Below, piece after piece: positions 3,971 through 6,061 of a DNA stretch of 46,003 nucleotides; position 1 is the stretch's first letter, and the number at the start of each line of letters is the position of its first letter. The notes under the pieces are model-generated. The model saw only the letters and a program-made list of their open reading frames with translations. It did no database searches and was not told the origin of the DNA. Both the position numbers and the translations under genes were made by a program. This DNA is from a virus. Location of the stretch: positions 1 through 46,003 of IMG/VR virus record IMGVR_UViG_3300027976_000065, one strand, 5' to 3'.

Positions 3971-4438
3971 GTGACACAGTCATACGACAATCCTTGGACT
4001 TATAACGGTACTGCCTTTGAGTCTGAGGACATCGGTGACAACTACGGGTTTATATATAGAATCACAAACACAGAAAATGGACACGATTACGTAGGTCGTA
4101 AATTTTTCTGGACTATCAAAAAGAGACCACCTCTAAAAGGCAAGAAAAATAAACGTAGAAGTACAGTCGAAACAGACTGGAAAACATATTACGGATCATC
4201 CGAAAGGTTGGTTAGAGATATCGAAGAATTAGGAAAAGAAAAGTTCACTCGTGAAATACTATATTTGTGTAAAACACGTGGTGAGACCAACTATATGGAG
4301 GCGTATTTTCAGTTTAAAGAAGATGTCCTATTGAGAGATGATAACTACAATGGGATTATTAATATTAGACTTGGAATAGGTTCCGTAAAGAACATTCTCG
4401 TAGAAGATTTAAAAAAGTTAAAGGATTTAGTTAAATGA
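3971..4438 (+). CDS. SegE-like GIY-YIG endonuclease
   Basis: A 155-residue protein starting at GTG directly after the previous stop. It has the degenerate GIY-YIG core seen in T4 SegE-like proteins: GFIYRITN then YVGRKFF about a dozen residues later, WKTYYGSS, and a conserved Glu in the NYMEAYFQ helix that fits the metal-binding glutamate. Such free-standing nucleases in T4-like phages nick related genomes and spread by repair. No separate DNA-binding repeats are visible, so specificity probably lies in the core and the C-terminal tail. The stop overlaps the next start (ATGA). Confidence 0.82.
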   Translation: MTQSYDNPWTYNGTAFESEDIGDNYGFIYRITNTENGHDYVGRKFFWTIKKRPPLKGKKNKRRSTVETDWKTYYGSSERLVRDIEELGKEKFTREILYLCKTRGETNYMEAYFQFKEDVLLRDDNYNGIINIRLGIGSVKNILVEDLKKLKDLVK

Positions 4439-5244
4439 AGTCGCTGATAGTAGGAGGGTGTTCTTACTCTGCTGGCTACGGGTTAAATTACGATGATCCT
4501 GAATCGGACTGTAAAGAGTCACCAGATCTTTGGGTTAACTTGTGCCATAGAAATATTAAAAAATTAAACAGATTAAGTTTAGAAAATATCGGACAGTCTG
4601 GTGCTAGTAATTCGGAAATTTTTGAAAATTTAGTAGAAGCTATCAGTAAAAATAAAAATGAGCTAGAAATGGTAATTTGTGGGTGGACTAGTATGCCAAG
4701 ATACAACGTCAACGTGGGATTTGAGTTGTACGATACTACTGCATCGTTGTCTCTAAATAATAGAACACATAAAACAAACCAAATTAATATATCTAGAAAA
4801 TACATAAAAAACTTAGTAGATAGGTTAAAGGTATTGCATCATTGTCAATGGGAAATAGTTAAAGTTTTGAGATATATTAATATATTAGAAGCTATGGCTA
4901 AAAAATATAAGTTTCAAATTTTACATTTAAACTTACTATGCCCATGGGACGTCGGGTTTTTTGATGTTATGCAAGGCGATTTTTTACCAATGATGTTAAC
5001 AGAATTTACAAGAAAAGAAATATTACATATAGAGTCACGTGATGATGAGGAGATTTTTTCCTTATATAAAAAACAACATCAGATGTATTTGGAAGTTGGG
5101 GGAGTACAAAAAGAAAAATGGATAAACCTTTATAATTCTTTTAATTCCTTACAAGTAGATACAAGTTATGATGGTATCCATCCGGGCAAAGAATCTAATA
5201 AAATATTTTATAGCACGGTTAAAGATTTTATAGAAACACATTAA
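4435..5244 (+). CDS. SGNH-hydrolase-like protein
   Basis: A 269-residue protein opening with a GGCSYSAGYG segment that fits block I of SGNH/GDSL hydrolases (catalytic Ser in G-x-S). An IGQSGASNSE stretch follows, with Gly and Asn positions like blocks II and III, and near the C-terminus DGIHPG matches the block V Asp-x-x-His. These hydrolases deacylate or de-esterify lipids and polysaccharides; phage members are sometimes receptor- or envelope-modifying. No signal peptide or fibre domain is present, so it may act inside the cell. The local base composition is more AT-rich than that of the structural genes, which may mean recent gain. It is the last gene before the long RNA-like region. Confidence 0.72.
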   Translation: MKSLIVGGCSYSAGYGLNYDDPESDCKESPDLWVNLCHRNIKKLNRLSLENIGQSGASNSEIFENLVEAISKNKNELEMVICGWTSMPRYNVNVGFELYDTTASLSLNNRTHKTNQINISRKYIKNLVDRLKVLHHCQWEIVKVLRYINILEAMAKKYKFQILHLNLLCPWDVGFFDVMQGDFLPMMLTEFTRKEILHIESRDDEEIFSLYKKQHQMYLEVGGVQKEKWINLYNSFNSLQVDTSYDGIHPGKESNKIFYSTVKDFIETH

Positions 5245-5249
5245 TAGTC

Positions 5250-5790
5250 AATGATGCAGATGTATTCTGTGTCCTGAGGAGATGGTAGGTTATGCCTACT
5301 TGGAACGTGTAGAGAAGACTACACACAGGACGACGCAACAACAACTAGGTGTAAAAACCGAAAGATGTAGGCTCTGAGAAAAAGCAACCTACGTGCATTT
5401 GATAATTGGCTAACTACGGTTATCAAAGCATCCGCCAGATGAAGCTGAAGTAGGGGGTACAGGCTGACCGCCTCCGTGCTAGTGATAGCAATCTTTTTTA
5501 GTTAGTATGTGCGTAAGACTCAGATAAAGTGTCTTTCATACTTTGCCTTGCAGTAGGTGAAGTATGGCTGAAAGATCTAGATAAAGCAGTTAAGAACATA
5601 CAGTATATCAAAGTAATATAAGGTAATCAGATTAAAGGAAAAGAACTTCGAGTGTTAGCGAGAAGTTAGATGTCAAAGACATCTTTTAATAGTAAGCAAT
5701 ATCTTTATTATGCGATAATTATGACTTAACGTTCTGTTAGGTTTTCTCTGAAAAACAATTCAAAAAAAAGCACCCAATTAAGAGTGCTTT
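5250..5790 (+). ncRNA. Candidate large structured non-coding RNA
   Basis: No ORF with coding character fills this stretch, yet it is dense in complementary segments. A three-way junction is closed by GTCCTG 5271-5276 / CAGGAC 5326-5331, with hairpins 5285-5299 and 5307-5324 inside. Further stems are GTAGG 5367-5371 / CCTAC 5388-5392; an 8-bp stem 5398-5405 / 5420-5427; 5429-5441; 5453-5475; a 5-bp stem with a GTGA (GNRA) loop 5477-5490; a 12-pair hairpin 5537-5566; 5644-5667; and a 7-bp stem 5668-5684. The GNRA loop and G-U pairs favour the plus strand. Its size and phage setting recall the ornate phage RNA classes GOLLD and ROOL, but I cannot confirm membership. No clear promoter is seen just upstream. 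Confidence 0.6.
5762..5790 (-). terminator. Intrinsic terminator for the minus-strand operon
   Basis: Read on the minus strand, AAAGCAC, a 10-base loop and GTGCTTT are followed by an uninterrupted run of eight T. This is a canonical Rho-independent terminator 38 bases beyond the stop of the small membrane protein gene. On the plus strand the same hairpin is followed only by TTTCTTG, so it would end the RNA candidate less efficiently. Confidence 0.88.
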
Positions 5791-5827
5791 CTTGTTACTG
5801 TTCTGCGGAAATGGTGTAAGTCTATGC

Positions 5828-6061
5828 TTACTTCTTATTCCAGATTGAGTATAGTACCCATACTGCTACCAATCCTACTAAGCCTTCAGCTCCTAAGGTT
5901 TTGATAACGCCAGTAACTGAACCGATAACATCAGTAGCTGGTAAGAATGCAACTGCAGATCCTTTGAGTAGAATTTCTAATGCAATAAACATTGCCATTA
6001 GTGAAACTGCTACATCAGCGATACCTGCCGCCCATTTCTTAACGTGTGTTAATACTTCCAT
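5828..6061 (-). CDS. Small two-helix membrane protein (holin candidate)
   Basis: I choose the ATG at 6061 (77 residues) because a perfect AGGAGG lies eight bases upstream; a start at 6103 would put the ribosome binding site inside the gene. The protein has a short N-terminal amphipathic part with Lys, a first hydrophobic segment (about residues 16-34), a Gly/Val-rich linker, and a second (about 56-72) ending in a charged WNKK tail. Two-helix proteins of this size in phages are often holins, but similar small membrane proteins of unknown role also occur in marine T4-like phages. It has its own sigma70 promoter, a late-type motif and a terminator, separating it from the neighbouring tail gene. 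Confidence 0.7.
   Translation of the reverse strand: MEVLTHVKKWAAGIADVAVSLMAMFIALEILLKGSAVAFLPATDVIGSVTGVIKTLGAEGLVGLVAVWVLYSIWNKK

Follow-up and report, generated by a model that had tools for sequence, protein, structure and literature searches.

A gap of 580 bases (positions 5245-5827) in the stretch of viral DNA analysed here (46,003 nucleotides, hereafter the window) almost certainly encodes a structured RNA of a class that is not modelled in Rfam. The RNA is conserved in sequence and structure across related viruses, is present in multiple copies in three cultured jumbo phages, and contains two heptamers that change together and to the same bases. It folds into a 5′ domain built on a three-way junction, a core held by a pseudoknot, and a 3′ domain with a hairpin placed between two identical heptamer loops. 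Taken as a whole, the evidence makes it probable that a lineage of large T4-like/jumbo phages carries this molecule as a free-standing structured RNA and that it acts as a binding platform. The source record is a 46-kb virus whose genes include a GIY-YIG gene of the SegE-like type, a baseplate hub resembling gp26, and a T4-like portal. The nearest relatives of the portal (∼50% identity) belong to jumbo phages, PA5oct and Atu_ph07 among them.

A conserved RNA in a gene-free gap

The longest open reading frames of the gap, both strands considered, encode 30 to 38 amino acids (aa), and none reaches 60 aa, which bears out the preliminary description of a gene-free stretch of more than 500 bases. 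No conserved reading frame persists through the insertions and deletions that are frequent among the homologues. Folding of the plus strand gave a z score of −3.68 against shuffled sequences (0 of 100 shuffles as stable), and that of the minus strand of the gap gave −2.51. The RNA had been placed at 5250-5790. The conserved RNA reaches to about 5684, and 5690-5790 is lineage specific; homology in blastn and nhmmer stops at query positions 441 to 448, corresponding to about position 5685 of the window. The latter stretch holds a terminator-like inverted repeat (Table 1) that a strict scan did not call. A search for a promoter 5′ of the window copy gave none, so that this copy may instead be processed from a message that begins further upstream. 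A tRNA/tmRNA search of the 46-kb window returned none.

Table 1. Features of the RNA and its surroundings (window coordinates)
Feature	Position	Strand	Basis or remark
Whole conserved RNA	5246..5684	+	∼440 nt; homologue ends and 46-sequence alignment A2
5′ domain, three-way junction (5247-49/5332-34, 5256-59/5267-70, 5271-76/5326-31, 5284-88/5296-300, 5307-12/5319-24)	5247..5334	+	Helices 1-5 of A2; 88-100% of cells paired
Small hairpin (5348-50/5357-59)	5348..5359	+	97.8% paired
Stem (5366-71/5388-93, inner 5375-76/5385-86)	5366..5393	+	98.6% paired
Stem (5394-96/5428-30) and 9-bp stem (5400-08/5417-25), loop CUAACUA	5394..5430	+
7-bp pseudoknot, 5410-5416 (CUAACUA) with 5499-5505 (UAGUUAG)	5410..5505	+	A2
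Central core, 5447-50/5493-96 enclosing 5453-58/5470-75 and 5477-80/5487-90	5447..5496	+
Twin heptamer copy 1, AGATAAA after ACTC	5522..5528	+	Covaries with copy 2 in the same sense
14-bp hairpin between the twin heptamers	5535..5568	+	97% paired
Twin heptamer copy 2, AGATAAA after ATCT	5579..5585	+	Identity with copy 1
3′ hairpins, 5644-48/5662-66 (with 5651-52/5657-58) and 5667-73/5677-83	5644..5683	+
Terminator-like inverted repeat AAAGCAC...GTGCTTT, between RNA and convergent gene	5767..5790		Read from the sequence
GIY-YIG (SegE-like) gene	3971..4438	+	Context; PF19835, 1e-39
SGNH-hydrolase-like gene, between GIY-YIG gene and RNA	4435..5244	+
77-aa predicted membrane protein, convergent neighbour	5828..6061	−	Context

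Homologous loci were collected first through two proteins encoded nearby, the hub protein and the 77-aa membrane protein, and then through a conserved 25-mer of the core. Loci from the neighbour-protein searches contain the RNA at 70 to 90% identity, and the 25-mer scan added at least 120 further stretches. Of the 227 viral loci collected, 204 match a profile derived from the close set, and these represent 68 clusters at 90% identity; in four loci (L007-L010) the neighbour gene is present and the RNA gave no significant match. A structured pattern searched across 84,980 bacterial and archaeal genomes hit a single contig of a metagenome-assembled genome (MAG), and the RNA, which thus appears to be phage-borne, was treated as such. 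Structural work was based on 46 non-redundant close homologues and on the 46-sequence alignment A2, covariation was also analysed on 66 diverse loci, and alignment A1 served to build R1, a covariance model restricted to the core. We found no paper describing this RNA in the open-access literature that was searched, although a description in a preprint or closed journal is possible, and the words "noncoding," "ncRNA," and "intergenic" are absent from the CBB genome paper.

The RNA lies between the recombination genes (gp46/47) and a baseplate hub gene, and this synteny is fixed. In marine and freshwater relatives it follows gp46/47-like genes, begins no more than a few bases from the stop codon of a GIY-YIG or other nuclease-like gene, and faces the hub genes. 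The GIY-YIG family is found in 46 of the 68 loci and in most close relatives is the immediate neighbour of the RNA. Relatives of the SGNH-hydrolase-like gene that has been inserted before the RNA in the window occur upstream of the RNA on the plus strand in three loci (L051, L057, and L167) and downstream on the other strand in a fourth (L192), so this gene seems to move around the RNA. The predicted 77-aa membrane protein has 309 relatives in viral contigs but belongs to no Pfam or PHROGs family, and a search of 50,697 named phage records gave no match to it. The 3′ flank of the RNA is an insertion hot spot (L012, L014, L124, L204, L224, and L227), where sulfotransferase-like, acetyltransferase-like, HNH, amidinotransferase-like, and unknown genes were seen by eye on the opposite strand.

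Secondary structure and pseudoknot

RNAalifold analysis of the 46 close homologues yielded a well-supported consensus structure. Covariation was assessed with an R-scape-like procedure (not R-scape itself) that applies a G statistic with average product correction (APC) and shuffles the inferred substitutions along a FastTree tree; the null comprised 40 replicates, which limits the E values. Covariation among homologues had been named beforehand as the evidence to look for, and 19 of the 23 significantly covarying column pairs fall inside the consensus structure. In the A2 structure including the pseudoknot, 540 cells changed on both sides, compared with 156 ± 11 in the shuffles and at most 108 when the partner was shifted out of register, and the covariation score was 0.359 versus 0.142 in the shuffles. 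Shifting the 3′ partner by 1 to 3 columns reduced pairing from 89% to 33 to 46%. Helices 2 to 16 are 91 to 100% paired. Columns with U-G or G-U pairs are conserved in 41 to 46 of the 46 sequences, which fixes the plus strand and confirms the strand originally assigned from such pairs.

Changes on both sides were seen at 17 pairs of helices 1 to 5 in the 5′ domain, at five of the six outer pairs of the stem 5366-71/5388-93, and at seven of the nine pairs of the stem 5400-08/5417-25, which is 95.9% paired. The loop of the latter stem forms the pseudoknot, which is paired in 99.7% of cells with compensatory change at three pairs, and which by eye is kept with other bases in divergent loci (TCTATTC/GAATAGA in L154 and CCGTATT/AATACGG in L153). 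RNAalifold had also drawn a weak helix around the core (85% paired), which was dropped in favour of the pseudoknot. The core, with the conserved RGUACMGGNNRACCGCYU at 5453-58/5470-75, is the most conserved block and served for the search pattern and for R1, and a pair near 5447-5494 covaries in the 66 diverse loci (E < 0.03). In the RNAalifold structure of the 46 sequences, the two 3′ hairpins are 86% (5644-48/5662-66) and 100% (5667-73/5677-83) paired. The layout of the class is present, namely a core stem GUACMGG-loop-ACCGC, then the twin heptamers around a hairpin, then the 3′ hairpins. Same-base covariation (G/G or A/A) was also observed between positions ∼5441 and ∼5557, coupling UGAAG before the core with GUGAAG of the 14-bp hairpin, and perhaps reflects a tertiary contact.

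All the elements listed in the preliminary description proved real; neither the pseudoknot nor the twin heptamers were on the list. The three-way junction at 5271-5331 is conserved in its three stems (5271-76/5326-31, 5284-88/5296-300, and 5307-12/5319-24), as is the 7-bp stem drawn at 5668-5684, which the comparison places at 5667-73/5677-83. The 12-pair hairpin at 5537-5566 extends to 14 bp, and the conserved 8-bp stem at 5398-5427 becomes one of 9 bp. The stem at 5477-5490 is conserved and has a GUGA loop in the window, but its GNRA cap is not kept in all relatives.

Twin heptamers with same-sense covariation

Four significant covariations are not base pairs; they join columns 58 apart that carry equal bases. 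These columns belong to two motifs, ACTC-X7 and ATCT-X7, X7 being the heptamer, placed symmetrically about the 14-bp hairpin. Elsewhere X7 reads GGATGAT, GGATAAT, AGATGAA, ACGAAAT, and others, and the two copies are identical in 62 of 67 loci, compared with 7.8 under random pairing (maximum of 18 in 2,000 trials). In the remaining five loci, at least six bases are common to both copies after re-registering. On a tree built without the heptamer columns, 15 of 16, 20 of 20, and 13 of 14 changes in copy 1 (at positions 1, 5, and 7, respectively) share a branch with a change in copy 2. Same-base pairs again rank at or near the top in the diverse set of 66 loci. A helix drawn by RNAalifold between the two heptamers was rejected, given that the covariation is same-base and that many heptamers are not mutually complementary, and an alignment scan for an internal third strand able to pair with both heptamers found none. 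The two motifs also agree within each of 12 copies from named phages, with pairs such as CGTCAA/CGTCAA, CTTCAAG/CTTCAAG, and GTGTCA/GTGTCA. In one paralogue of Salmonella phage PHA46 (L276), both heptamers are changed relative to the sister copies, which fits poorly with one fixed partner per phage. The heptamers would best be read as two identical half-sites for one partner.

Relatives in cultured jumbo phages

Searches of named phages by blastn with the window sequence or with three divergent members gave nothing useful, whereas R1 found two significant sites in PHA46. Used as a blastn query, a PHA46 copy matches 41 named phage records, among them Munch, 7t3, SE_PL, 121Q, PBECO4, GAP32, CBB, BF, RaK2, and K64-1, as well as Erwinia and Xanthomonas jumbo phages. 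R1 independently scores 121Q, GAP32, CBB, and RaK2 with E values of 1e-4 to 5e-3 for the best site of each. In the three genomes examined for copy number, five copies (PHA46), four (121Q), and three (RaK2) are dispersed over intergenic gaps on one strand; the 121Q regions concerned are 90332-90950, 192839-193332, 247750-247930, and 326683-327150. The RNA is longer in these cultured relatives (∼480 to 600 nt versus ∼440 nt in the window), and the named-phage copies keep the core stem, twin motif, hairpin, and 3′ hairpins; in RaK2-like phages the GUAC of the core is replaced and the layout is retained.

Eight of the 12 named-phage copies have a perfect TATAAT 5′ of the RNA with a TTGACA-like box 16 to 18 nt upstream of it, pointing to transcription by a host-type RNA polymerase. 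The 121Q copy at 326683-327150 has a recombination endonuclease subunit and endonuclease VII on one side and, on the other, a small gene and a baseplate hub subunit (opposite strand) followed by a structural protein, a gene order that equals that of the window. In the regions of 121Q 89267-90232 and RaK2 190368-191264, one RNA copy of each phage comes directly after a gene for a phage RNA polymerase sigma factor. PA5oct and Phosso have no match to R1; gene-poor gaps of 1.0 to 1.5 kb at the syntenic place by the hub gene (PA5oct 75666-77180 and Phosso 229758-230773) might contain the RNA in a more diverged form.

Comparison with known RNA families

No Rfam family reached its gathering score anywhere in the window, and a search of 5200-5860 at E values up to 10 gave chance matches only, without GOLLD or ROOL. 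Neither family was found in 18 homologue loci or in the named-phage copies, and the group I and II intron models had no match in the window or the 18 loci. Membership in GOLLD or ROOL, which the preliminary description had proposed, was therefore rejected, while its alternative of a possible new class missed by existing models is borne out by the covariation together with the lack of any Rfam match in the window. GOLLD resembles the RNA in being large, pseudoknotted, phage-borne, and without an established function; it exceeds 800 nt and is often located near tRNA islands (PMC12286853), whereas the 46-kb window contains no tRNA. ROOL is likewise a large phage RNA (659 nt in one example) with several pseudoknots but differs in genomic context, and its covariance model does not match. 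OLE RNA is large and ornate and binds proteins, an activity that is only proposed for the RNA of the window; it gave no match and is known from Gram-positive bacteria, not phages.

One catalogued family does touch this class. RF01718 (Polynucleobacter-1) is a 141-nt RNA described with function unknown by Weinberg et al. (2010, PMC2864571), the only paper on it found in the open-access literature. Its model has no match in the window sequence at the gathering score or at E values up to 10. In three divergent loci (L080, L107, and L108), it scores 95 to 99 bits just 5′ of the profile-matching part, and it also lies near the core in L229-L231 and L236, giving 94 to 119 bits over all seven loci. 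The R1 core directly follows RF01718 in three large virus contigs, for example at 215613-215743 after RF01718 at 215454-215589 in one of them (G003; the others are G004 and G007). This adjacency on the 5′ side of the core suggests that RF01718 is one domain of a larger RNA; judged from sequence comparison, the most fitting view is that it constitutes the 5′ domain in one branch of the present class. The family covers only that domain of its branch, and the 5′ domain of the window differs from it, no more than a general resemblance by eye being seen between it and the three-way junction of the window; the Weinberg et al. text found does not describe a phage, a 3′ domain, or twin loops. A 302-kb virus contig (G002) has a second RF01718 match at 165500-166500 (L286; 35.5 bits, below the cut-off of 37) and a window-type core at 275805, suggesting two branches of the RNA in one genome.

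Discussion

To our knowledge, the large structured phage RNAs described so far are very few, with GOLLD and ROOL as the named examples (OLE is bacterial), and their functions are poorly understood. We propose that the present RNA would be a binding platform. The paired heptamers would act as two identical half-sites, occupied either by a protein dimer or by a single kind of nucleic-acid partner in two copies, and a second partner would bind at the conserved core; in this way the RNA would sequester or scaffold a factor during infection. Transcription in the window, the partner, and its sequestration we infer from the comparisons, and the twin-site mechanism is offered tentatively. Doubtful still is a fuller version in which the RNA, as a multi-copy class of jumbo phages, would be expressed early from host-type promoters, would use the heptamers as matched half-sites co-evolving with a symmetric partner, would act on a factor of the phage or its host as an RNA operator or sponge, and would be essential to the giant-phage life cycle.

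Among the alternatives, loops that contact other copies of the same RNA, forming a cage or dimer, would agree with the resemblance to GOLLD and ROOL in size, pseudoknot, phage origin, and state of functional knowledge (PMC12286853) and with the several copies per genome. Complementary kissing loops, however, would not be expected to covary in the same sense, most heptamers are not palindromic, and no Rfam match to GOLLD or ROOL was obtained, so we regard an RNA-only homo-oligomer as unlikely. Two identical short sequences that change together could also be two copies of one antisense seed pairing in trans with phage or host messages, and copy 1 can be drawn by eye as a hairpin loop in many members; yet the RNA contains no conserved complementary segment, the complement of the window heptamer is not in excess within the window, and a folded platform of 440 nt exceeds what antisense action needs, which leaves this reading quite unlikely. 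The co-varying repeats resemble iterons as well, and the three to five dispersed copies per genome on one strand and the adjoining recombination genes in the window and 121Q would suit a replication origin with a folded primer (like ColE1 RNA II) and heptamers as initiator sites, but compensatory changes and conserved G-U pairs reveal selection on the RNA, and we judge an origin improbable.

Other readings tie the RNA to its neighbours. That it is a structured 3′ end or leader controlling decay or expression of flanking genes is suggested by its start no more than a few bases from the upstream stop codon in many loci and by the terminator-like repeat that follows it. The flanking genes (GIY-YIG, PD-(D/E)XK-like, SGNH, and others) are nevertheless freely exchanged on both sides while the RNA stays, which speaks against a cis element bound to a single gene, and many cultured-phage copies have a promoter-like site of their own; we consider this distinctly unlikely. 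The same exchange of cargo counts against a remnant of a mobile intron or ribozyme linked to an adjacent homing endonuclease gene. GIY-YIG or other nuclease genes do abut the RNA, but the nuclease types change while the RNA persists, no gene is interrupted, and neither intron group is matched, so that such an origin is very improbable. Fold energy alone would be modest evidence for an RNA gene, but the covariation contradicts both a fold arisen by chance and an overlooked small protein, and no conserved frame runs through the indels; the probability of this reading is negligible.

A binding platform, our preferred reading, would thus concern a large phage RNA that is widespread in jumbo phages and of which RNA catalogues have at best one small fragment from a distant branch. 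Polynucleobacter-1 of Rfam would no longer be an orphan fragment but would belong to a phage RNA as its 5′ domain. Unlike RNAs observed only in metagenomes, this one occurs in cultured phages (of Escherichia, Salmonella, Klebsiella, Erwinia, and others) and is open to deletion, blotting, and probing. As an evolutionary signature, the same-sense covariation of its twin heptamers is unusual, and it offers a direct way to look for the partner.
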